Origin: Rhizoclosmatium globosum
Taxonomy: Eukaryota; Chytridiomycota; Chytridiomycetes; Chytridiales; Chytriomycetaceae
Assembly: GCA_002104985.1 (NCBI GenBank)
Contig: MCGO01000033.1
Span: 62,001 to 126,000, forward strand
DNA length: 64,000 nt
Direction: 5' to 3'
Positions 15,781-39,756 of this stretch are shown here, one piece after another. The translations under genes were made by a program, and so were the position numbers. Under the pieces are notes generated by a model. It saw nothing but the letters and a program-made list of their open reading frames with translations, searched no databases and had not been told where the DNA came from. Numbering within the stretch: position 1 is the first letter of the stretch; each line of letters starts with the position of its first letter.

Positions 15781-16583
15781 ATGAGTCTCTCAAGTCTCAC
15801 TTCTGGCTTCATTCAAGTCGCAGGTACCAATACCTGTTGGACTACCGCCGGCGGTGATGTCAGTACCGTCCCATGCAACCCACTCGGCACGAACCAAGTC
15901 TTCACCTTTCAAAGAGTCAACGGTTTTGTTCACATTCAACAGGGAACCAAGTGTGTTAACGTATTTGGTGGAGGAATCAAACCCGGTGGAAATGTCAAGG
16001 TAATGAAAGCTGTCAAACTTGATTACATTATTACTCATGGCGTCAATGTTAATACAGATGTATGATTGTGGTGCTGGAACTACCGCTAGTAACGAACTGT
16101 TTGTTCTGGGTGACACCAATCCAACATTTTTGAAGTACAGTCTTGCAACCAACCTATGTCTCGGGCAAAACGGTTTCCTGTACACGAACCAGTAAGTCGA
16201 TTTCCCTGATATTATTAATTTTTAATCGGCAAATGCAGAGATTGTCCTAAATCTGCCACGACTGGATTCCAATTCAACCTCCTCTCCTCTGTAGCACCAC
16301 AAGTGGCCACAATTTCAAGCGGCTTTGTTCAAATATCAAACAGTAACAATTGCTGGTCGACTTCTGGAGGCGGTATCAACGCCGTTCCATGTAATCCAGC
16401 TGACACAGCTCAAGTTTTCTCTTTGTTTGGATGAACGGATTCCTCCAGATTAAGCAAGGAAATAACTGTGCCAACGTTGCTGGAGGCGGCTACTCGCCAG
16501 GAGGAAAGTTGGGAGTAAGTGAAGATTAAATTTTTTGTTTAATTGACAGAAACGTTTCAGGTTTACCCTTGTAGCTCTGGAAC

Positions 16584-17674
16584 TGTCAGGAGTTCCTGAC
16601 AAGGAGTTTGGATAATTTACGTTTCGGCAATTTCGAAGTTTGTCGGAAGGGGTACAGGAAGCCAAACCTTTCTTATTTGAGTGGCTACTCAATTTCTTTG
16701 AGTGTCAGGACATGTTACTTGATAGCAAATTGGTTTTGCAAAAATAAAACAGAAAGTTCCCTCAAAAAGACAACAGTAGACTGTAGAGCCAACAGGTCTC
16801 TTTGAGGCATTCCAGAGGCCACTTGTCTGTGGATCATTAGGACATGATCGATTCAAGTCTGGATGCCGGCTGAGGACAACCCGTCCCTAGAACCCAACCA
16901 GGTTGCTGCCAGACAACAGTTGCCAGTTCGCTGGGAAAGCAAGTCAATCCAGGCCAGGAACCTCTTTTCACCATGGGGCTCTTTCCCGAACGGAGGGATA
17001 GTACCCTTGGGAACCGGCCCAACCACGGCTCCATGGTCAAGGGGATAGAACACCGGCGTGTGTGAAATCCTAACAAGCACCCCTAACCAGTGGTATGCAA
17101 GCCAGTACTACACCACTCTCTCCAGACTCTGGGCTAGGAGAAACCAAGGCGCGGGTCCCTAAAACGGATATACAGAGGCGACTGGTCAAGCTCCTTGGTG
17201 CCGATGAGCAAGCGATTCAAGCTGTCCAGTTGGGAATGTGTAAAGATCAACCAACTGAGTAGCAAGTACCGTGGTCCCAGGAAAGGATATTCGGGTGGAT
17301 CACAACGGACCGGAACGAGAGCAAGGTGGTGCAAGTGCAAGTCTCGATGGTGCTCTAGTGGTCATCGAGATGGCAAGTTTTGTGGTTAGGAGAACCAACA
17401 ACAGATTGCAAGGTGAGTGTAAAGGTGAGTGCGAGGCGGTGCCGTTGTTATCTTTCTTTATTGTTGTTTTATGTTTCTATCCCATCATTACTGTTAGTTT
17501 TCTCTTTTAGATGTTGATGCAGGTATAGTGCTCGAGTCCTCATGGGCTTGTAGTGGCGACGTCCGGGGCCATCGGAACTGTTGTTTACAGTTCTGGTGAA
17601 ATTGGCGGCTACAAGCGAGGGATGAGGAGCGCTGCCGGGAAGATACCGGCGAAAAGACCCCGCAAGTCGTGACA
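16584..17674 (+). repeat. 5' LTR (1091 bp)
   Basis: Matches 26554-27644 base for base at an offset of 9970. It starts with an 18-bp palindrome, TGTCAGGAGTTCCTGACA, and ends CGTGACA. Short open frames inside (such as 16837-17076) recur only because the LTR is duplicated and are not genes. Confidence 0.97.
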
Positions 17675-19286
17675 TTTTGGGGGCCTCACCTCATTATGGG
17701 GATGATGGCCGCTGTGACCTCTACTAGACATGGTAAGGTATATGTGAACATCCATTCACTTTCTCGCAACTCGTTGCGAAGATCGCTGGTTTATCCAGTG
17801 ATAGCTCAACCCAGAGCTTTGGCCACCCATAGCCTTCATTTCATTATTGTTAATCGTATGATCACTGTATAATAAAGCTCGGGAGAGCACCAAACTCAAT
17901 ATAACTATATTAGGATTCCGTAACCCACCTGAGGGAAGGAAACGTTACTCCCTCGTCTTTCGAAACCTCCGTTGTTTGTTTGTTGGGCGGGACGGATCCC
18001 GAACACCTTTCAAAACCTCTTGTCAAAAGTAAACAACTGTTCAAAGTTGCCCTAAATCCTCTCGCTCTCCGTCGCAAACTGGTGCTGTTGTCTGGTTTCT
18101 GCTGTATGGCCTGCGGCACTTATATCCCAAACACCGGCTTAAACTCCAGTAGACATTGGAGCGACGGGAACAAGGGCTCAACGAACGACGAAACTCAGAA
18201 TCGAAAGAAGGTACCTTCCTCCCACATCCCTCTTCTTAAAATCTATTCGTTTTTCTTCACTCAAAACCAACGACCAACCGACGACTGTTCGAGCGATGAC
18301 GCTCGAAACCACGACAACACTCGGAACTACGGCAATACTACGAAGCTCAAAGCCGCTTGTAAGTTGTTCTTGAAGCTGTCTCTAGTTCTCTAACTCGCTC
18401 TCGAACCATACAGGAACTCACCTTACGAACTACGTGCCTCACCCCACCACCAACGTCCCTGTTACGTTGCCGCAACGCCCTCGCCGTTGCGGGCTGAGCA
18501 GAAACGAAGACTTCAAACCGGTGAGCCACGTATGAACGGAGAGCCCCTCACCCTTCATCATATCTAACCTACTGAACCACCAGTTCAACGACGGCCAACT
18601 CCGAATAACGACGCCCAACTAAACAGCGTGGAACACCAACGAAGCCAACGACGAATGATTCGTCAGGTCAGTTCACCCTTGCCAACGACACAACTGATCT
18701 AACTGCCTACTCGCACTCAGAATGTAGCACCAATGTCGCATCTATGCTTGCAAGACTCCTCTCATTGTCGACGAACTGGACTTTATAATGAAGGTAACTA
18801 TCATTCCACCCCCTCTCTCTCGGGTGTGGAAGATCCCTCGGTGGAGAGCTCTTCGCGCTATTGACTCGTCGGTGGACGAGCAATAGCAGCGCACCACACC
18901 TTTACCCAACTCCCTCTGTATAGTTCACTCACTCAGTCTTGTACTCAGACGACCGTTCACGCGAACCCATTCGACGACGAAACAATACCAGAACGATCCA
19001 ACCCTCAATTGAATCAGGAAAAGCTGGTCGCTTTGTTGAATACGAACCGTAACTAGGTAACTGTATGATGTATTATTGATGTAGAGACTTCTATCACTCC
19101 CTCCCATTCCCACGGATGATAATAAACATTATTTCTCACATTACTTTCATTTCGTTACTCTGAATCGTGTAACAAAATTGGAATACAACGCAGACGTGCA
19201 AAAAATCCACCAAGAATCGTGCCGTACAACTACCGACCTCAGACGTCGAAAGGAGCGTAAGCAGCAGGCTCACGTCAGACACATGC
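17675..19286 (+). other. Retrotransposon leader without a recognisable gag
   Basis: 1.6 kb between the 5' LTR and the protease frame. The first bases, TTTTGGGGGCCTCACC, could hold a primer-binding site starting at TGGGGGCC (17678), but I cannot match it to a specific tRNA. The longest open stretch (17980-18393) shows no capsid or CCHC zinc-knuckle motif. Gag may be degraded, spliced, or absent in this lineage. Confidence 0.5.
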
Positions 19287-22200
19287 ATGCCGAAGCCAAG
19301 CGAACGCATGTACACCGTTGCAAGGATATCTGGATGGGTTCACGGAGTTTTCATCAACCGACTTATGCAGGATACTGGAAGCAATCACTCGGTCGTAACT
19401 ATGACATTTTTAGACCAATTAGTTAACCCACCTAAGATAATCAAGCTCGATCGACCAACATTCAACAGAGGAGTAACAGGAAAACAAAGAATTATCGGAT
19501 TCTGTTATATGAGACTACTGCCGGGACAATACACGCCACATACTCTGGGCTTTATGACGCGTTTCACTGTAGTACAAGATATGCCAGAAGACATAATCAT
19601 CGGAACACCAGAAATGAAAACTTTGAAAGCGACGATTTCCTTCGAAGACGATATGTTTTACTGGAAGTCACCAAGTAAACCACACGTCACACTAAAAATA
19701 CCGCTATATTCTTACGTTGATTACCCTGAATCCCAAACGGAGAAGCTTTCAAACCTCAATAAAAGAACGGAGAATATACCACTAACCCTTTGCAATACAA
19801 CCATCCTCCAACCAAACCATACACACACAGTAAAAATCCAAGCATCGAAAATCCCGGACACAGAAATCACAACGTGTACAATCAACGGCTCCTCCGGACT
19901 CGGCGACAAATCAGTACATGTAGCATCAACAGTATTCGACTTCAAAGATATCGCAAAAGGGCCTGTGCCATTACAAATAACGTATTTAGGATCAAAACCT
20001 CTCACCCTAAGGGTAGGAACAACAGTAGCGTTCCTAACGGACACAGAAGCCGGAGACTTACCAATATTAGAAGTACCAACGGAGATTTCCGAAGATGACA
20101 AGCTTGCACAAGACTTTGCATTGCTAGTGAATGCATACAACCCATCGGATCTTGAATCATTCTATGAGAAGCTAGGTTCACCAAACCTGACACAACAACC
20201 TCTCCCGAACCCGCAACAATCACCATTGCAGAATGATATCATAATGGGCGCAGCTATCAACCAAAATTATGGAGAAAGTAATTTAGAAAGTGATGAAGAA
20301 TTCTTCGAATTTGTCGACGAAGACGTAGACGAGTCCTATGAATTGTACCTTAACGACAACGAAAGCATTTCAACAAGAGATGCAACAATAAACGACATAT
20401 TTAAGAAATCCGAAGAAGATGAAATCTTTGACCTATATTATGACCCTCTTGAGGACCTACCCAAAATGCACCCTTGGACGCCACGTCGCAAAGGAAAGAA
20501 ATATAGGAAACCACGCGTAAAACGCGAGCGAGGCACCGCTTTTAAGAATGCAACCTTCTCAAACGAGTTCTATAAGAAATACACCATGAATACTGAACCG
20601 GACGACATCCCCAACTATGGTTGGGAGAGGGACACATCAAAAGAAGATAAAATGGACTATTTCCCTCCAGAAAAGAATGTCACTATTGAAGACATTTGGA
20701 ACCAAATACCCAAAGAACATATTGTACAATTACACGGCGCTGAGGCACTCAGGAAACTACGCTCGATCATAGAAAAATGGGCAGATATCTTCAGACCAGG
20801 AGTTGTAAAAGGTACACAATTTGTTCCCCCACACACTATCCCCTTGAAAGACGGTGCAAAACCACCCCACACAAACCCGTACCCAGAAGGAATGGCAAGA
20901 GCAGAAATTATTAGATCACACATTAAAGATATGCTTGAAAACAATGTTATTCGACGCTCTCGATCACAGTATGCAGCACCTGTCGTTCTGGCCAAAAAGT
21001 CAGACGGTAGTTGGCGCTTCTGTGTTGATTATAGAAAACTAAACGCAATTTCAATCATTGACAAGTATCCTATACCAAATATTGCCCTTATTTTTGAGAA
21101 ACTGGCTGGACACGCATATTTCAGTTCAGTAGACTTACTGAGTGGATTCTGGCAAGTACCCATCGCAGAAGAAGACAGACACAAGACAGCTTTTGTAAGC
21201 TCTGCCGGACTTTACGAATGGAATTGTATGCCATTTGGATTGGTAAATTCACCAAGTACGTTCCAACGAATGATAGATCTTGTCCTTGCTGGACTCAAGT
21301 GGGTACATTGCCTTGTTTATATAGACGACGTTGTAATCTACAGCGAGGATTTAGACTCCCACTTTGAATACTTAGATATGGTCTTTGGACGTTTCCACGA
21401 ATTCAATCTAAAAGTCAAACCCAAGAAATGCAACTTACTATTCACGTCTTTACCTTTCCTAGGCCATGTCATCTCAAAAGAAGGACTCAGAAAAGATCCC
21501 AAGAAAATGGCAGCTCTTGAGAACTGGCCACGCCCCAAAAACGTCAAAGACCTACAGAGATTCATTGGTTTCACCTCATACTTCAGACGTTTCCTCCGTA
21601 ATTTCTCTGAAACTGCTAAACCACTTTATGAATTACTTAGAACAGACCACCCTTTCATTTGGTCAGAGGAACGCGAGAAAGCGTTTCAAATCCTAAGAAA
21701 CCAATTACGCGATGACCAACTCCTAGTTGAACCAGATAAAGACTCACATCTCCTTATTGAATGTGACCCATCAGGAACCTCAATTGGAGCTGCATTGTAC
21801 ACGTATGACCCAAAGAATGTCTGCGACAGAAAACCTGTTGCATTTATTTCTCGAACACTGACCAGTGTAGAGCAAAGATATAGCAATACAGACAGAGAAG
21901 GCCTTGCTGTTGTATGGAGTGTTGACACTTTTGCTGGTTATCTTATAAATAAACCTGTCCGAATAGAGACAGACCATATTGCCCTTCTACCACTTTTCAA
22001 AAATGGTGAACTGACTGGAAGATTTGCACGATGGTGTTACGCATTACAAGACTATGATATCACACTTGTCCACGTAGCAGGAACAGCTCAGATTGTAGCT
22101 GATTCCCTTTCAAGAATCAACTTCCGCCAGGACAACATTGACAAACGTGAGACAGAAAACGTCCACATTGGAACGTATTTCCATCAAAATAACGGGGAGA

Positions 22201-23417
22201 ATGGTCAAAATGACCAAGAAGTTGAATCAATCTACTTGAATCTACAAACGTTCACTCTTGCATTCGAAGATAGACAGAAACGCGATGGAGCTATCATTGA
22301 AGGATTGATAAAGAAAGTAGGAAAACACATCCTTAAATGGAACTCAAAGAAAAAGGTGGACAGAATCCAATCTGTGAAAGACTTATCAAGAAATAAGCCA
22401 AAGCATTTCCAAACAAATGAAGAGCAAGAAACAATAAAAGATTCCTACCCCACTTTAAACATTACAAGTTGGAATATCAATGGCCTCCGGGGCCTTCTCA
22501 ACAAGTACGCGGGACAGAATAACCTGTCCAGAAAACAAGAAGACCAACCACAATTACTTGAGCATTTCCTGCAGTCCTTCAAAAGCAGTGTAATCTGCCT
22601 CCAAGAAACAAGACTGGGAACAGACAGGAAATCAGTACAACTCATTGAAAACCTGAACAAGCTCAAAGAATGGAATCACCAATTAAATGATCCCAGAACA
22701 GGACATTACGGAGTCCTAACACTCTGGCGCAAGTTTGAAGGACTTGAATCAGAATCTGACAACCACATGCCTGGAAACCCAAAACATTCAAGTGAAGGAA
22801 GGATCACCAACCTCCACTTACCAAACCTTACAGTTGTTAACACATACTTACCAAGTGGTAACAGGACTGCTGATAGACACAACTACAAACTTGAGTTCCA
22901 AGATGACCTTAAAACCCATTGCGAACAACTTCGCATTACACGTGATGTCATCCTGGTTAGTGACTTCAATACTATCCGAAACTACACTGATGTCCTCCAA
23001 GGTCTTGAGACAGACATTGTTGACCAGTTCCCATCAACCACAACTCCAGACGAGAAGACGTGGCTCAACTCCCTTGAAACATTGTTCACAGATAGTTTCC
23101 GTGAAAAATACAGCCAAACTGGAGCAACATGGCTCATCAAGGCACCAAACCAACAGCACTACCCTTTTTGGCGTATTGATTACATATGGGTTGATAAAAG
23201 AATACCTGTCAAAGCATATGACACGAGGGTTGAAGCCCCAGAACAGGAGCCCCTCAGTGATCACCTTAAAATCCAAATAAATATCAATTTCAACTACCTC
23301 CTTGAAGTAGCAGATGAACCCTATTACCCCCACGGACTTGAATTTGATAACCAAACTGGGACGATGATGACAGTGAGAAATACACCTATCAAACTTCAGC
23401 GGAATACATCCAGTTAA
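19287..23417 (+). CDS. Retrotransposon polyprotein: protease, RT, RNase H, EEP endonuclease
   Basis: Open frame of 1376 codons. Protease: LMQDTGSNHSVVT with catalytic Asp29. A ~350-residue acidic linker follows. Reverse transcriptase about residues 535-780: RFCVDYRKLNAISI, SSVDLLSGFWQVPI, CMPFGLVNSPSTFQRMID and YIDDVVIYS (Asp680/681), clearly Ty3/gypsy. RNase H about 815-945: Asp827, Glu871, Asp896, Asp939. Then about 1055-1335 an endonuclease/exonuclease/phosphatase domain of the ExoIII/APE1 type: SWNINGLRG (Asn1063, Asn1065), CLQETRL (Glu1107), TYLPSGN (Tyr1187), SDFN (Asp1226, Asn1228), WRIDYIWVD (Asp1298) and LSDHL (Asp1325, His1326). All metal and catalytic positions of that fold look intact. 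The frame ends TAA overlapping the next ATG (TAATG). Confidence 0.93.
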   Translation: MPKPSERMYTVARISGWVHGVFINRLMQDTGSNHSVVTMTFLDQLVNPPKIIKLDRPTFNRGVTGKQRIIGFCYMRLLPGQYTPHTLGFMTRFTVVQDMPEDIIIGTPEMKTLKATISFEDDMFYWKSPSKPHVTLKIPLYSYVDYPESQTEKLSNLNKRTENIPLTLCNTTILQPNHTHTVKIQASKIPDTEITTCTINGSSGLGDKSVHVASTVFDFKDIAKGPVPLQITYLGSKPLTLRVGTTVAFLTDTEAGDLPILEVPTEISEDDKLAQDFALLVNAYNPSDLESFYEKLGSPNLTQQPLPNPQQSPLQNDIIMGAAINQNYGESNLESDEEFFEFVDEDVDESYELYLNDNESISTRDATINDIFKKSEEDEIFDLYYDPLEDLPKMHPWTPRRKGKKYRKPRVKRERGTAFKNATFSNEFYKKYTMNTEPDDIPNYGWERDTSKEDKMDYFPPEKNVTIEDIWNQIPKEHIVQLHGAEALRKLRSIIEKWADIFRPGVVKGTQFVPPHTIPLKDGAKPPHTNPYPEGMARAEIIRSHIKDMLENNVIRRSRSQYAAPVVLAKKSDGSWRFCVDYRKLNAISIIDKYPIPNIALIFEKLAGHAYFSSVDLLSGFWQVPIAEEDRHKTAFVSSAGLYEWNCMPFGLVNSPSTFQRMIDLVLAGLKWVHCLVYIDDVVIYSEDLDSHFEYLDMVFGRFHEFNLKVKPKKCNLLFTSLPFLGHVISKEGLRKDPKKMAALENWPRPKNVKDLQRFIGFTSYFRRFLRNFSETAKPLYELLRTDHPFIWSEEREKAFQILRNQLRDDQLLVEPDKDSHLLIECDPSGTSIGAALYTYDPKNVCDRKPVAFISRTLTSVEQRYSNTDREGLAVVWSVDTFAGYLINKPVRIETDHIALLPLFKNGELTGRFARWCYALQDYDITLVHVAGTAQIVADSLSRINFRQDNIDKRETENVHIGTYFHQNNGENGQNDQEVESIYLNLQTFTLAFEDRQKRDGAIIEGLIKKVGKHILKWNSKKKVDRIQSVKDLSRNKPKHFQTNEEQETIKDSYPTLNITSWNINGLRGLLNKYAGQNNLSRKQEDQPQLLEHFLQSFKSSVICLQETRLGTDRKSVQLIENLNKLKEWNHQLNDPRTGHYGVLTLWRKFEGLESESDNHMPGNPKHSSEGRITNLHLPNLTVVNTYLPSGNRTADRHNYKLEFQDDLKTHCEQLRITRDVILVSDFNTIRNYTDVLQGLETDIVDQFPSTTTPDEKTWLNSLETLFTDSFREKYSQTGATWLIKAPNQQHYPFWRIDYIWVDKRIPVKAYDTRVEAPEQEPLSDHLKIQININFNYLLEVADEPYYPHGLEFDNQTGTMMTVRNTPIKLQRNTSS

Positions 23418-26092
23418 TGGGATTCTCCTCCAAAAGGATCTGTGAATTACAAGAAAAGGATGCCTACCTTGGACCTTTGAAGAAATTCAGGCAGGCAGGA
23501 GTTATTCCTGAAGGAGCCACAGCAAAAACTCTGACAGCAGAAAGTAAGTCAATGATCATAAGTAATGATTTATTGTACAAGGTATTTAATGCTTCATCAT
23601 CTTCCGCCCGACGTCTACCAGCCAGAGTTGTCCTCTGTGTTCCCGATGGAATGCGCCGCGAAGTCCTCCAGTGTGCACATGACGACCTATACTCTGGCCA
23701 TGCTGGATTTGGAAAAGTAATGCGCAGACTGTTAGAAAGATTTTGGTGGCCACAAATGGCTGCAGATTTAAAGAATCATATTGATTCTTGTGAGACATGT
23801 CAGAAATCAAAAGACAATATACGAAAACAAGGTTACACCCACCCAATACCCATTGGACATTACCCTTGAGAAACAATTTTGTTAGATTTTGTAGGTCCCC
23901 TGAAACCAGACGCAGATGGAAATGTGTATATCCTTGTCCTAGTTGATAGCTTCTCAAAATGGGCAGAGGCACTACCAATCCCAGACACTAAGGCTGAGAC
24001 AGTTGCTCGCATCCTGATAGAACAAGTATTTTGTCGCTATGGGATCCCTATCTTTATCCACACGGACAATGGTCCCCCATTTAATGGTAAACTCATGGAA
24101 TACCTGAGTAGAGCATTTGGCTTTGAGAAGACATTCACAGCCCCCTACCGCCCAGAGGCCAATGGACCAGTTGAAAGACTTATCAAAACCCTGTCCCAGA
24201 AGCTGCGTGCTTACGTAGACAAAACAGACTATGATGATTGGAGTGCATACCTCCCTTACGTTCTTTTTGCTTACCGCACACAGGTCCATGCCTCAATAAA
24301 AGACACACCTTTTTTTGTAATGTTTGGACGTGAAGCCAGAGTACCAGCTGATTTGTTAATTGGAGTCAGTCCCCTCCAAGCACAATCTGCAATTGAGAGC
24401 CAACACAAATTGGACCTGTTAGAGAGCAATGCCAGCTATGAAACAGTTGAACCAAACACCAAGCATGAGGCCAGAATTGGAATTGCAAAATTCAGAAGAC
24501 TAGCACCATTCATGTGCAAGACTTTGGGAAAGCTGCTGTATGGTGTTGAAACAGATGTGCCCAAACATGAGACTCTCAAGCGCCTGTTTGAGAAGGATGA
24601 TTTGGACATCCTTTACTTACAGTTTGACCCCTTACTCATATCAAAGAATATACCAAAAGAGCCATTTCCCTCTTGCTTTTACCTGAAAAATGGAGAGCGT
24701 ATAGATAGGGTTGGAAAAACATACTTACTGGACTGGAGTTCTGGAGAACTCAAACTCAACAACTTCAGGAAACCCCAACCGATAGTCACAGTCTTTGCAA
24801 GGAAAGGAATGTACCAATTTGGTAGTGATAGCCTTGAAGATATAGATGACTCTTTTGAGTTACCAGCTATCTTCCTGGGGCGGGATGGAACTCTAAGAAG
24901 AGTCACACGTGACAAAGGAGTTACTGTAACTCAAATAGTTGTGGACCCTACCAAACCCCCAGGTGGAGTGATCATACCAAGAAAGATACTCAAACCAAGG
25001 ACAACAGATCACCTGCGAACAAACCTGTTGAGGAATAACCTACTCCGCTCCTTGAACCTAAAGACATTCAATATTCAGCTCAATAAAGAACTTACTAGAA
25101 AAGAAGTTGAAGCCATGAACGAAGCCATTAAAGACCAGATTAGAGAAGGACAATCAATTGCGCAACAGTTCATCAGAGATCATGTTGCCCAGGAGCAAAA
25201 GAAAGCAATTACCAAAACGCTGACTACTGACAATGCCCCACATGAGTTCAAGAAAGGAGATCGGGCTTGGTTAGCTGTCCCACTCAAGAACGTTGCACAA
25301 CAGATGAATGTTGGAACCAAGTTCCTCTTCCGTTGGATTGGACCAGTGCGAGTAGTAGAGAGATCTACAGGAACCGCAGCCTCAAGGTATAAAGTTGTTG
25401 AAAACTTTGACAACATGGACTTGATGGTCAGAGAGTGTCATGAAAGTAGACTCAGACCATATGTTAATAGATTGCCAGTGGACAGTGCAGAGAATGCAGC
25501 AGTGCTAGCAGGAGATGACTATGCTACAGAGTATAAGGCATGGAGTGATGCTGTGCTTTACTCAAAACGACCCAACCGGGAGCCCAAGAAGGCACTTGGA
25601 ATGCACCCCCTTTTGTTAAGGAAGTGGGATCTAGAGTTCACTGAGGAAGACGTTACACGTCCACTTCTCTTAATCCACTCAATTGAAGATGCAGATGGCA
25701 GTGCAACCAGAGGATTCCGGTATAAGACACGTTGGATGGGACGTGACAATAAGCCAGCTGCTAGAAAACATGATTCTTGGCAGGACGAGATTGACATGCC
25801 TGCTCAGATGATTGCTGACTATTGGGAGTCTGTGAAAACAACCAAGGCAAGAGCCTATAAACAGTACCAGAATTGGCTGAAACGTGAGACCGAACGCGCC
25901 AATACTGTTTTTACAGAAACAAGGACCTTGGATAACCCCCAAGTTTTGAAAAACAAAAATGCTGATCCAGAGCCTGAACCAGCTCCAGAAGAAGCCCTGA
26001 CTGAAACACAACAAGAAGATGTGGTTGTGCCAGAACCAATCCTGACACCAAGAGAGCAGCGTGCCCTCAAATTCAGTCAGCTTAAGAAGTAA
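23417..26092 (+). CDS. Retrotransposon integrase with chromodomain-like C terminus (interrupted by TGA)
   Basis: Frame continues across one in-frame TGA at 23867-23869. Before it: the H2C2 zinc-binding domain (HDDLYSGHAGFGKVMRRL, then CETCQKSK). After it: the DDE core with LDFVGPL (Asp near 23885), IHTDNGPPFN (Asp near 24065) and NGPVERLIKTL (Glu near 24172). About 270 residues without recognisable homology follow (24370-25185), then the usual post-core KKGDRAWL, FRWIGPVRVVE (GPY/F-type module) and a chromodomain-like segment, YKTRWMGRD...DSWQDEI...MIADYW (25674-25830). The TGA sits where related integrases usually have a Trp before Glu, so a point nonsense change is likely. The frame is open upstream to 23351 with sensible codons, so it may be fused to the RT frame. 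Confidence 0.85.
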
Positions 26093-26534
26093 GATTATTG
26101 ACAGAACATCAGACAGTGACAAAAGAGCCATGACTTTGTACTTGCCCAAAGAGTTATTAACAGAGAGTTGATTGCTTACCCAAGGCTATTTATTTGGGGT
26201 GCACAGGCAAGGGCTCAGGTCATGGACTGAGTACTTGTTTGAGCGGAGGAGGAGGTGTTGGAGTAAGTGGAAAGGAGGCGGAGGATGGAGGAAGACCATG
26301 CTCATCTAAAGCCAACAAGACCAAGTCTCCACAAGCAAACAACAAGTATCTTGAGTTCGTGCATAATGCATTTCACAGTTCTGGGTTTCTGTGTTTTAGT
26401 GGGTGGGAGTCCCACACTGTTCACAAGTTAGGAAGAGTTCTTGACCCAGGAGGGCAAAAAGAACCAACAAGGATCAAGTACAAGACAAGACTACACATAG
26501 AATGAAGGATGCCTTGGTCGATGGTACAACCAAG
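26093..26534 (+). other. Retrotransposon 3' untranslated region
   Basis: 440 bp between the integrase stop and the polypurine tract. No conserved domain. One short open frame (26194-26505) is Gly/Ser-rich and matches nothing I know. Confidence 0.6.
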
Positions 26535-26553
26535 ATTTCAAAGAAGGGGCCAA
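26535..26553 (+). other. Polypurine tract
   Basis: AAAGAAGGGG immediately before the 3' LTR, the normal place for the plus-strand primer of an LTR element. Confidence 0.7.
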
Positions 26554-27644
26554 TGTCAGGAGTTCCTGACAAGGAGTTTGGATAATTTACGTTTCGGCAA
26601 TTTCGAAGTTTGTCGGAAGGGGTACAGGAAGCCAAACCTTTCTTATTTGAGTGGCTACTCAATTTCTTTGAGTGTCAGGACATGTTACTTGATAGCAAAT
26701 TGGTTTTGCAAAAATAAAACAGAAAGTTCCCTCAAAAAGACAACAGTAGACTGTAGAGCCAACAGGTCTCTTTGAGGCATTCCAGAGGCCACTTGTCTGT
26801 GGATCATTAGGACATGATCGATTCAAGTCTGGATGCCGGCTGAGGACAACCCGTCCCTAGAACCCAACCAGGTTGCTGCCAGACAACAGTTGCCAGTTCG
26901 CTGGGAAAGCAAGTCAATCCAGGCCAGGAACCTCTTTTCACCATGGGGCTCTTTCCCGAACGGAGGGATAGTACCCTTGGGAACCGGCCCAACCACGGCT
27001 CCATGGTCAAGGGGATAGAACACCGGCGTGTGTGAAATCCTAACAAGCACCCCTAACCAGTGGTATGCAAGCCAGTACTACACCACTCTCTCCAGACTCT
27101 GGGCTAGGAGAAACCAAGGCGCGGGTCCCTAAAACGGATATACAGAGGCGACTGGTCAAGCTCCTTGGTGCCGATGAGCAAGCGATTCAAGCTGTCCAGT
27201 TGGGAATGTGTAAAGATCAACCAACTGAGTAGCAAGTACCGTGGTCCCAGGAAAGGATATTCGGGTGGATCACAACGGACCGGAACGAGAGCAAGGTGGT
27301 GCAAGTGCAAGTCTCGATGGTGCTCTAGTGGTCATCGAGATGGCAAGTTTTGTGGTTAGGAGAACCAACAACAGATTGCAAGGTGAGTGTAAAGGTGAGT
27401 GCGAGGCGGTGCCGTTGTTATCTTTCTTTATTGTTGTTTTATGTTTCTATCCCATCATTACTGTTAGTTTTCTCTTTTAGATGTTGATGCAGGTATAGTG
27501 CTCGAGTCCTCATGGGCTTGTAGTGGCGACGTCCGGGGCCATCGGAACTGTTGTTTACAGTTCTGGTGAAATTGGCGGCTACAAGCGAGGGATGAGGAGC
27601 GCTGCCGGGAAGATACCGGCGAAAAGACCCCGCAAGTCGTGACA
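26554..27644 (+). repeat. 3' LTR (1091 bp)
   Basis: Identical to 16584-17674 by eye. It is followed by GAAC, the target-site duplication, and then by the resumed host exon. Confidence 0.97.
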
Positions 27645-30079
27645 GAACAGGCGTCAGCAATGATAAATTTTCGACAAGCGGCATCAATCCAGTGACTCTT
27701 CAATACAGCATATTGCCAAGTCTTTGCATTGGTACTTCTGATGCAGGGTTCACCAATCAGTTAGTCAAACAAACTGTTTGTATCAAGGCAATTTTAGTAA
27801 TCACACGTTATAGGTTCTGTCCAAACACAATCAATTCAGCTTTCCAATTCAATTTTGTGTCTACCCCAAATCTGGTTTTAAGCTGTCCTGTTGGTTCCAC
27901 CATTTCAACTTCCACCACTAATGTCGGCCAAGCTCGAATCGGATCTCTTTACGGAAACCAGCTCTATGATCCGAAAAATGAAGTTAATAACACCTACGCG
28001 GTTCAGCCCATCACTGTCGTTGTTAAAAATGCTCAGGGAGTCGTCCAGCCTTGGTGCCAAGTATACTGGACTCCCCGTGTTTCCTCTGACTTTTCAAGTG
28101 GTTGGGTTTATCCCAACTCCAAATTTACAGATCAAACAGGGTCTGTCGCTGCTTCTTGGATGGCTGGAAACGGGCCCTCGCAGTTTTTGGATGTTTCCAT
28201 CAAAACTGATGATGGAAACACTCAATCTTTGACTATTACGGGAGCTGGAGTTCCTCACAGTACACGATCGAACTCAATCCATGTCACCTATGCAAGTCCA
28301 AACTGGGAAAAATTCTCTGTCGACCTTATTCCACATTCTTGGCCACCAACTACATATTACATGGCGATTGGAACCACCCACATGTACTCTGGTATTCAGA
28401 ACAAAATGATCCTCTTTTCTATCTGGGAAGTTGGCGGAAAAAACCCAGATGTGATTACTAAGCACAAAGACGCCACTTGCAAAGACTTTGGAGGTGAAGG
28501 AACCGGTATTCAATGTGCTATTCCTTTCTCTCCTCAACTTGATGCCACTTACACATTTGTAATGAGTGTGGTACCAGCAGGGAACTTGCAAGACTATACA
28601 GTTCAAATGATTGATCAATCTTCTGGCCAGACATACGAAATCGCAACTATGAGACTGCAAACAAGTCAGGAGAACCTTGGCGCGTACAGTTTCACAGAAG
28701 ACTGGGCTACATACAATTCTTCTTGTCTGCAAACTGACCAGCGCCATGTCACGGTGCAGAATGTCAAGTACTTCAAAAACGGCCAATGGAATCTTGTTGA
28801 TCCCAGTCTAGTTTACGGAGACGCGGTCTTTACTCCGAATCACAACGAAGTTTGCACCAATTATGACTTCAACTTTGCTGATGGAAAATACTGGATGAGT
28901 AACGGCGGTATGTCAATCGGAACTCCTCTCAATATTCCAGGACGATCAAGAAAGTATTATGCGCCACCACCTTCACCCTCAACAACTACGAGTACTTCCA
29001 GCTCTACCAGTATTCCTGCGTCATCCACCGTTATTCCAAATGTTTTAACTACAGTCAAAGCTCCACTGGCAAGCTCCACTAACGTGGTTTCATCAACTGT
29101 TGACAAAGGCATCACAACAGCAGCCGTAACTGTTCCAGGAGCGACGTCTATCGCCAACATTCCTCCTGCAACAGTGTCAAGTACCTCATCAAGTGTAGCT
29201 GTCACAGTTCCTTCTTCATCACCACTTCCAAATGCTCCTCCAGCGGTTGTTGCCAGCACTATGAAAGATATTCAAGCCGCTATTACCGCAAACAACAAAA
29301 CCTCCCCACTTTCTGGCTTGAAGATAGATTCTTCCGCGTTGACTAATTCTTTGGTGAGCATAAGCTTCACCTTGGCTCCTGGGTCAAAGAAACAATTCGT
29401 TGCTCCTACTGTTGCTGCTAGCTCTGGAAATGGCTTCAATATGGGTGTTGTTGTTGTCTCCTCTACTCAGTACAAGTTCACAACAGTTCCCATTGCAATT
29501 CGTAACACTACCAACTCAATTTTCGCAGCAACTCCTGCGACTGGAGGCGGTGCACAGCTTTTGTACACTGTTGCAAATACCGTATCTCAAATTTGGTATG
29601 AGCTGGTGCTTAGTGTGGATGGTGTGAAGTTGACGGTAAATGTTTATGGTGGGCAAACTCTTTTGTTGAGTGTGGACTTTGGAGTTGCTTTGGGACAGAA
29701 AAGACAAGACGGCGGATTTTCGCTTGTTGCTGGAATTGCGCCAGTTATTGATTCTGTTGTTTTGGCAACCGAGTCTGCTGGTAGCAAGGCTCCACCTTCC
29801 ACCACATTGACCACTGAAAATTTAATTCCTACTGTGCCTTCTATTCCAAACTACGGTGCTCCTACTACCGCTGCTGCTGCTGCTGCTGCTGCTGCCGCGC
29901 CTTCCAAGACCCAAGCTAATGTTCTTTACTCTGGTTCGCGTCAAAGCGCTATTGTTTCTGTTCTTGGACTTTTGTTTGTTTTGATTATCTGATTCTATTA
30001 CTCCCCTTTCTTCACTTGAATTGGGATTGGTAAATAATTGAAAGACCTCTTTCTCTTCTATCCATTTTTCTTGACACTA

Positions 30080-36294: not shown

Positions 36295-37989
<1,695 letters not shown>

Positions 37990-38092: not shown

Positions 38093-39756
38093 ATGCACAT
38101 TATACTATCCCTCTCAACTATTTCTTTTCTTCTCGCTGTCCACGAGGTTGCTTCTCGTCCAATTGGCCTCGGGCATCGTCAACGTCGTGGAAACCAGCCC
38201 ATTATTCCAAGTGGGGACGTCGGATTTGTTCAACTCGCAGAGTCCAACTATTGCTGGTCTCAGAATGGCGGCCTTACTGTTGCTGTTTGTAATCCGTCGG
38301 ACTTGGACCAATTGTTTCGAGTAACAAAAACAAAGTTGGGAATAATCATATCAGACGCACCCGTCCGGAAATGTGTTGGGGTTTTGAAAAGTTCAATGCA
38401 TGACAATAGTCTTGGATTTGTCGATTGTGATGAAGGAAGTCCCGCACAGACTGTAGTTTTCAGTTCCAAGTCCACAAATCCAACGCTCTTGCAATCTGTC
38501 TCAGATCCTCAACTCTGCATAAACCAACATGATAAAATCCTTAAAGCAGGGTACGTATGGTTCAAATTAGTATTTACTGTGTTCAACTATTATTCAGGGT
38601 GTGTCCAAAAGATAACACGGATCAGTCAAAATTCCAGTTTCGTCTTATAAATAATCCAGTTGCCGTATCAAATTGTACATCTGCAATGGATGCGGTTGTC
38701 ACGACTACGTTTATCGGAAATGGACGTATTGGATCGCTTTATGGAACTCCAAATTTCAATCCTCTCATTGACGTTTATGGAAACAGCGCTTTCACTCCTC
38801 AGCCTATTCATATTTCAGTCGTTGACGGATCTGGGGCTCCTTTGTCTTGGTGTCCAATCTCGTGGAATCCGCGCAATGGGAGTTCAAGTGGATGGGCATT
38901 TCCACAGTCACTGGTTACGGATGCGACAGGTTCAGCCAGTGCCTATTGGGTATCGGGATATGATTTACTTCAGTACCTTGATATTTTACTTGGAGGCGAA
39001 AACGGCAGTACAACTGTTTCTGGAGTTGGGTTTCCTCTCAAGACCACCGCAACGACTGTGAATCTCACATGGAATATTCCTGCTTGGAAAAAGTTTTCAG
39101 TCGACGTGGTTCCTCATTCCCTGCCGCCGTTTACATATTATGAAGCTATTGGACTTGAAAAAAGCTCAGCGGGTATTCGTAACGGCCTAATTGCATGGAC
39201 TGTACAAGACAAGAACCCCAGTGTAGTCGTCTCAAATCCCAATACCACATGTATTATTGCATCATCGGACGATGTTGGACTTCGCTGTGCTTTTAACCAG
39301 GTCGTCAATATCAATCAAACTTACACATTCGAAATGGAGTCTTTGATCGGGAGCTCAAAGCGTCAAAATACCACACTGAGAGTTCGAGACCATGTCACTG
39401 GTCGCACATTCGATATTGCCACAGTTGAGACAGATGCTCATAGTACTCCGTCCACCACACGGGCATCGATTCGTGATACTTCCATGATTCCCGAGTTTTC
39501 TTGTTTAAGTACTGACCAGAGGTATGCCAGTTTTTCAAAGGTCAAATACATTGGTTTAGATGATGACAAGTGGATCGAAGTTCCGAAAACGAAAGCAGCG
39601 GGCACAGCCTCATTTAACCCTGGATCGAATCAAGTTTGTTGGAATTATGGGTTTGACTTTTCGGGTGAAGGGCAGTATTGGTTTAGCACTGGGGGTTCTT
39701 TTGTTGGAACTCGTCCCCTCAATCTTCCAGGAGGTGCAACCTTGTTTGTAACATGA
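38093..39756 (+). CDS. Secreted beta-trefoil / DUF3472-like protein (paralogue D, divergent)
   Basis: Two exons (38093-38550, 38598-39756) join to 538 aa. Signal peptide IILSLSTISFLLAVHEVAS. The lectin-like module is recognisable but diverged (FVQLAESNYCWSQNGG, LCINQHDKI). The Ig-like part keeps GRIGSLYGTPNFNP and TDATGSASAYWVSG. The DUF3472-like part keeps HSLPPFTYYEAIGLEKS, but [11 protein letters not shown] is replaced by AWTVQDKNPS and FGGEGTG by SSDDVGL, so it has lost the most conserved block. It may have a changed function. It follows paralogue C directly on the same strand, closing the cluster. Confidence 0.82.

Follow-up and report, generated by a model that had tools for sequence, protein, structure and literature searches.

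An ExoIII/APE1-type endonuclease domain in the pol polyprotein of Ty3/gypsy elements of the chytrid Rhizoclosmatium globosum

Structure of the element and its additional domain

The window analysed here, a stretch of 64,000 nucleotides of the Rhizoclosmatium globosum genome, holds a Ty3/gypsy LTR element at positions 16584-27644. The element is bounded by two LTRs of the form TGTCA...TGACA, identical along their 1091 nt (5' LTR, 16584..17674; 3' LTR, 26554..27644; both on the plus strand), and is flanked by a GAAC target-site duplication (left copy, 16580..16583; right copy, 27645..27648; neither assigned a strand). The two LTRs with a short duplication, and the order of RT, RNase H and integrase with a gypsy-type RT, identify it as a member of the Ty3/gypsy (Metaviridae) elements, with which it has in common the LTRs, the order of RT, RNase H and H2C2 plus rve integrase, and the 4-bp duplication.

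An open frame running from stop to stop (19173..23417, plus strand, as are the features that follow) encodes RT (PF00078, 20994..21473, Pfam E 4.3e-33), RNase H (PF17919/PF17917, 21660..22055, Pfam E 7.8e-24 and 4.1e-25) and, according to profile and structural matches, an EEP domain of the ExoIII/APE1 type (PF03372; TIGR00633 xth; 22467..23264). A protease-like DTG motif was recognized by eye in the same frame. The zinc-binding domain of the integrase (PF17921, 23639..23815, E 4.8e-21) follows in a frame that differs from that of the EEP in the window copy, and the integrase core (PF00665, 23882..24154, E 2.6e-13) lies downstream of an in-frame stop. A chromodomain was suspected by eye in the C-terminal part of the integrase frame (24155..26092); Pfam called none in the window or in the related locus L042, and the match in L039 reached 13.6 bits with a cut-off of 25.1.

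The window copy is defective: its integrase frame contains a stop codon at 23867-23869, and the frame is broken at about 23351-23417, between EEP and integrase. L010, a second copy, is free of both and has a gap within its EEP. Despite the identity of the LTRs along 1091 nt, neither gag-like sequence nor a CCHC knuckle was found in the window copy at 17675-19172; zf-CCHC was found in the relatives L039, L041 and L042 by a Pfam scan of these three group A frames. This result suggests that the copy was mobilised in trans or became defective recently. With a longest match of 7 nt at the primer site, self-priming was unsupported, and the window gave zero matches when scanned for tRNAs and against Rfam.

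The additional domain comprises about 280 residues between RNase H and integrase. The first-pass annotation had placed an EEP at this position, a claim confirmed by PF03372, by structural matches and by a significant profile match: TIGR00633 scored the window EEP at 115.2 bits, above its curated cut-off of 99.05, and three narrower ExoIII models scored it below their respective cut-offs. The best structural match was Mth212, a uridine endonuclease; LINE endonucleases are not among the 50 structural matches listed, which carries no information about them. Among 11 aligned EEP domains, selected from the fetched loci of three groups of elements (A, B and C, described below), 26 columns are invariant and include NxN, QE, Y, DxN, RxD and SDH. 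The motif columns presumably correspond to the named catalytic residues of APE1, and the catalytic set is complete in all 11 domains. The NPKxN stretch of 5cfe and APE1 appeared by eye not to be conserved. The element EEPs thus share the fold, the catalytic residues and a TIGR00633 score above the cut-off with the ExoIII/APE1 (xth) AP endonucleases, from which they differ in belonging to a retrotransposon polyprotein. Judged from sequence, the element EEP may have AP-endonuclease or 3'-exonuclease activity.

Recurrence, lineages and selection

A search with the window EEP gave at least 53 matches in the genome. Integrase lies 3' of the EEP in all 30 fetched loci and RNase H lies 5' of it in 29; the exception is L037, where the EEP match starts at base 1782 of the contig. 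We also mapped at least 60 loci with an integrase zinc-binding (H2C2) domain by their coordinates. At 49 of the 60, the EEP is in the same cluster, at one of them as a remnant only. The map resolves into 39 loci with the order RH-EEP-INT (including the one with the remnant), 3 with EEP-INT and no called RNase H, 7 with EEP-RH-INT, 10 with RH-INT and 1 with INT alone; these counts are lower bounds, as the lists of EEP, H2C2 and RNase H matches hold the best-scoring candidates. Second pieces of listed domains were left out of the map (5 of 67 EEP and 3 of 66 RNase H matches), and one EEP remnant was added. The distance between RNase H and integrase follows the position of the EEP: 1375-1852 bp where a full EEP intervenes, 499-829 bp where it lies upstream (seven loci) and 349-552 bp where it is missing (ten loci).

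The open frames that contain the EEP reach 3901 aa. Three group A frames (L039, L041 and L042), which end at the edges of their loci, run free of stops through zf-CCHC, RVT_1, RNase H, EEP, H2C2 and rve. In Ty3/gypsy elements of this fungus, the EEP has become a stable component of pol. The alternative of a nested insertion in one copy, for which other copies would have to lack the segment, was rejected on the 49 of 60 H2C2 loci with an EEP (one a remnant) and the 30 of 30 fetched loci with integrase after it. A copy at C384:148998-151434, whose RT is 100% and whose integrase is 99% identical to those of the window, retains only an EEP remnant, with a gap of 515 bp between RNase H and integrase, and indicates that the element can be copied without the EEP, at least in trans. 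Three further group A RT places have no EEP match (one in C181, two in C346); matches to RNase H, H2C2 and the integrase core are likewise missing there among the best-scoring candidates, and we therefore took these places to be truncated copies.

The elements fall into three groups. Group A, to which the window element belongs, and group C (C383:219847, C90:239481, C387, C13, C203, C397 and C54) have the arrangement RT-RNaseH-EEP-INT, and group B (C368, C412, C146, C347, C411, C301 and C383:78629, with L048, L051, L055 and L056 among them) has the EEP upstream of RT. Compared with ordinary Ty3/gypsy elements, the chytrid elements add the approximately 280-residue EEP either before the integrase (A and C) or upstream of RT (B). 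The arrangements rest on Pfam scans for three of the seven group C loci (L061, L072 and L047) and two of the seven group B loci (L048 and L055), and on coordinates for the rest. In L048, the EEP is followed by a weak RVT_1 match (E 0.0019, below the cut-off) and then by RNase H; the sequence of L055 stops before RT. For C301, C383:78629, C368 and C412, the EEP, RT, RNase H and H2C2 matches all report a frame of equal length.

A tree of the RT-RNaseH region (104 rows, quick method) took in 95 of the 102 public proteins, the remainder having no span of at least 300 residues. Groups B and C fell in a 46-row set that includes 42 public proteins belonging to no group, and group A fell among the other 58 rows, split from the B/C set with full SH-aLRT support; the branch of the sole B row is very long. 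Rows without PF03372 in their Pfam column stand on both sides of this split. The EEP hence sits in two distant gypsy RT lineages (A and C) and, at a second position, in a third set (B). The nearest RT relatives within the genome, at 37-38% identity, have no EEP match by coordinates (C77, C201, C226, C338, C365 and C399).

Selection on the EEP was assessed from raw proportions of differences, synonymous sites being saturated in old pairs. In three recent copy pairs, the ratio of synonymous to nonsynonymous differences in the EEP was 15:1, 10:2 and 23:4 (48:7 in total), where site counts give a neutral expectation of about 1:4. The EEP is thus kept under purifying selection in recent copy pairs. 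In two old pairs, pS was 0.85 and 0.79, and the pN of the EEP was 0.17 and 0.10, close to the 0.07-0.14 seen for the integrase parts and higher than the 0.03 and 0.07 seen for RT. The EEP accordingly evolves faster than RT.

Public relatives and the source of the domain

The best public relatives of the elements are two proteins of Obelidium mucronatum, likewise of the Chytridiales, Chytriomycetaceae. P0072, a gene model of 759 aa, is 56% identical to group C across the end of RNase H, the EEP and the integrase; it is degenerate, being gapped and missing the first EEP motif. P0001 has a partial EEP and groups with group B. PF03372 is in the Pfam column of none of the 102 public proteins, a column that is imperfect as a negative because P0072 has an EEP unlisted there; two public rows were checked by alignment. 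P0074 is collinear with group C on either side of the EEP and has about 30 residues in the interval that takes up about 320 in L072, which we read as the state before insertion and as marking the insertion point for group C. A window-type EEP was found in none of 1047 candidate public polyproteins at E <= 0.001, among eligible lengths of 0.55-1.75 times 1414 aa, a range that excludes polyproteins of 3300 aa. A scan of viral contigs yielded three loci at 24-26% identity.

A LINE and a host repair gene had both been named in the first-pass annotation as possible sources of the domain. We compared a profile of the 11 element EEPs (A1) with known structures and matched 69 PDB chains, many of them human APE1 variants. 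Among the best 60, from which the figures are taken, the top 44 scored 129-169 bits, and 13 further ExoIII/APE/Crc chains scored 68-113 bits, with E. coli ExoIII (1ako) at 92; LINE-1 EN scored 49 bits. Since ExoIII/APE1 chains outscore LINE-1 EN, a repair-type (ExoIII/APE1) source is likelier than a LINE, and the earlier proposal of a LINE source is not supported. The LINE-type family PF14529 did not match the window frame at E 0.01 and gave a weak match in L048 (0.034), and none of its 14 places in the genome is among the 67 listed TIGR00633 matches. We disfavoured a LINE fragment as the origin of the EEP on the scores of 49 versus 129-169 bits and on the disjoint places of PF14529 and TIGR00633, the trees containing no LINE rows. 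The APE endonuclease of LINE (non-LTR) elements belongs to the same superfamily and is likewise encoded by a retroelement, yet it is set apart by its score with the A1 profile and by the lack of integrase and LTRs in LINEs.

In an EEP tree of 69 rows, made by dropping 22 of the 85 rows of an earlier tree (near-duplicate, short or redundant) and adding six PDB rows, group A forms one clade (100/100) and groups B and C form another (100/99). The two stand together against 53 other rows, vertebrate APE1 included, with 96/89 support, a value to be read with long branches and a bootstrap that had not fully settled. Holding group A with the ExoA/APE1 clade gave a p-AU of 0.035, which is weak. The placement of B relative to C varies: they are sister groups in the 85-row tree, and C lies inside B-type rows in the 69-row tree. 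Long branches and odd letter make-up were flagged in the EEP trees, also for the window row, and for this reason the trees are compatible with either history: the EEP may have been captured once and later transferred between lineages, or captured twice.

Possible roles of the EEP in replication

The general view is that LTR elements and retroviruses depend on their host for DNA repair. The presence of a selectively maintained EEP in several old element families suggests that they carry a tool of their own to finish or protect the DNA copy before insertion. With moderate confidence, we propose that the EEP would serve as a Mg-dependent AP endonuclease and 3'-end cleaner of the element cDNA before integration. 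The EEP would be made within the polyprotein, packaged along with RT and integrase, and act on the element's own cDNA, where it would cut at the abasic sites that arise when uracil or damaged bases are lost or removed, and would restore 3'-OH ends. RT could then finish the copy or fill gaps, and integrase would receive intact, correctly ended DNA. With the EEP, the elements would supply for themselves a repair step for which others draw on the host, and integration proper would remain the work of the element's integrase. The sharing of one polyprotein with RT and integrase, the complete catalytic set and the selection on the domain support cDNA repair. Its plausibility gains from two lentiviral parallels taken up below, the dUTPase encoded at the corresponding place in pol (PMC4531489) and the reported effect of host APE1 on HIV-1 autointegration and integrated DNA (PMC2644782). 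Against it stand the faster evolution of the EEP relative to RT, the defects of the window copy, the C384 copy with only a remnant and the unconserved NPKxN stretch. Moreover, folds of the APE1 class also include 3' exonucleases, uridine endonucleases (Mth212) and proteins with other roles, so that homology does not fix the substrate.

Another candidate is a role in shaping cDNA ends, in which the EEP, working as a 3'-5' exonuclease and/or an RNase H-like nuclease, would trim off what is left of the primer or surplus 3' nucleotides. The exonuclease role of APE1 has been studied as well, as PDB titles attest, and in groups A and C the EEP comes immediately before integrase. We consider this role unlikely, since RNase H and integrase domains are both kept, and the position of the group B EEP upstream of RT implies that closeness to integrase is not required. 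Retention of the integrase in the same polyprotein likewise weighs on the idea that the EEP nicks chromosomal target DNA in the manner of LINEs, or steers integrase to DNA with nicks or abasic sites. Many LINEs do nick their targets with an APE-type domain, but the one readable insertion shows the clean 4-bp duplication and full LTRs that integrase leaves, and the EEP is nearer to repair enzymes than to LINE-1 EN, which makes target nicking improbable. For the same reasons, namely the kept integrase domains and the ordinary 4-bp duplication, the earlier suggestion of integrase-independent insertion found no support.

A guard against autointegration, as reported for APE1 in the SET complex with HIV-1, or an action on the host repair response is a further candidate. 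In the available text of the HIV-1 study, knock-down of APE1 increased autointegration and decreased integrated HIV DNA, and knock-down of TREX1 or APE1 raised autointegration as well (PMC2644782). The same text reports MLV and ASV to be unaffected by APE1 knock-down, so a need for APE1 is not general even among retroviruses, and itself suggests a base excision repair route, by which such a guard overlaps with cDNA repair (PMC2644782). The analogy being lentiviral, we regard it as improbable. Scarcely credible is the view that the EEP is a passenger or a structural spacer whose catalysis is dispensable, or that it is a nested LINE fragment: the defective window copy and the near-identical copy that lost its EEP would fit it, whereas the invariant catalytic residues, the 48:7 ratio in recent pairs, the dozens of copies across several lineages and the relatives in a second species speak against it.

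To return to cDNA repair, the occurrence of the EEP in two distant RT lineages and at two positions permits a broader proposition, which we offer tentatively: these LTR elements may encode a base-excision-type repair nuclease, with repair of the cDNA, or else damage-directed integration at abasic or nicked sites, being integral to their replication. If a selected APE1-like nuclease is carried in distant lineages, cDNA damage or end quality can limit the replication of LTR elements, and the EEP families would offer a natural setting for studying how APE1 serves DNA of the retroviral type, a question also raised by the reported role of host APE1 in HIV-1 autointegration.

Several known elements offer parallels, each described here from the available part of its source. 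The dUTPase of non-primate lentiviruses is also a DNA-quality enzyme located between RNase H and integrase (PMC4531489); it is an unrelated enzyme that acts on nucleotides before synthesis, whereas the EEP would act on DNA afterwards. Gypsy elements of Phalaenopsis have captured AlkB, another nucleic-acid-modifying enzyme, in an additional ORF (PMC9289625), and retrotransposons bearing DNMT have captured a different one again (PMC5890265). Nearest to our elements is a remark on Kuafuorterviruses, animal LTR elements in which Exo_endo_phos is mentioned as sporadic and possibly host-derived; the comparison is by description, the domain order not being given in the available text (PMC11673190). 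Within the titles, abstract openings and passages of the open-licence literature, we recognized no description of the order RT-RNaseH-EEP-integrase. Judging from these partial sources, the capture of an extra enzyme by Gypsy elements is known (AlkB, PMC9289625), and an ExoIII/APE1-type EEP adds to such captures. Annotation pipelines may misread a domain order containing the EEP as a LINE inside a gypsy element.

Other matches were observed in the genome and in the window. At C360, C380, C410, C377, C212 and C405, an EEP scoring 64-71 bits (TIGR00633) has RVT_1 about 1.2 kb downstream and, among the best-scoring candidates, no RNase H or H2C2 match beside it; by their sequence, these loci are probably LINEs. 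In the window, a scan of 8 of the 21 ORFs of at least 250 aa found three DUF3472 matches within 12 kb, at 27692-29992, directly beside the element, at 36874-37989, and at 38557-39756, the last with 24.1 bits, just under the cut-off of 24.8.
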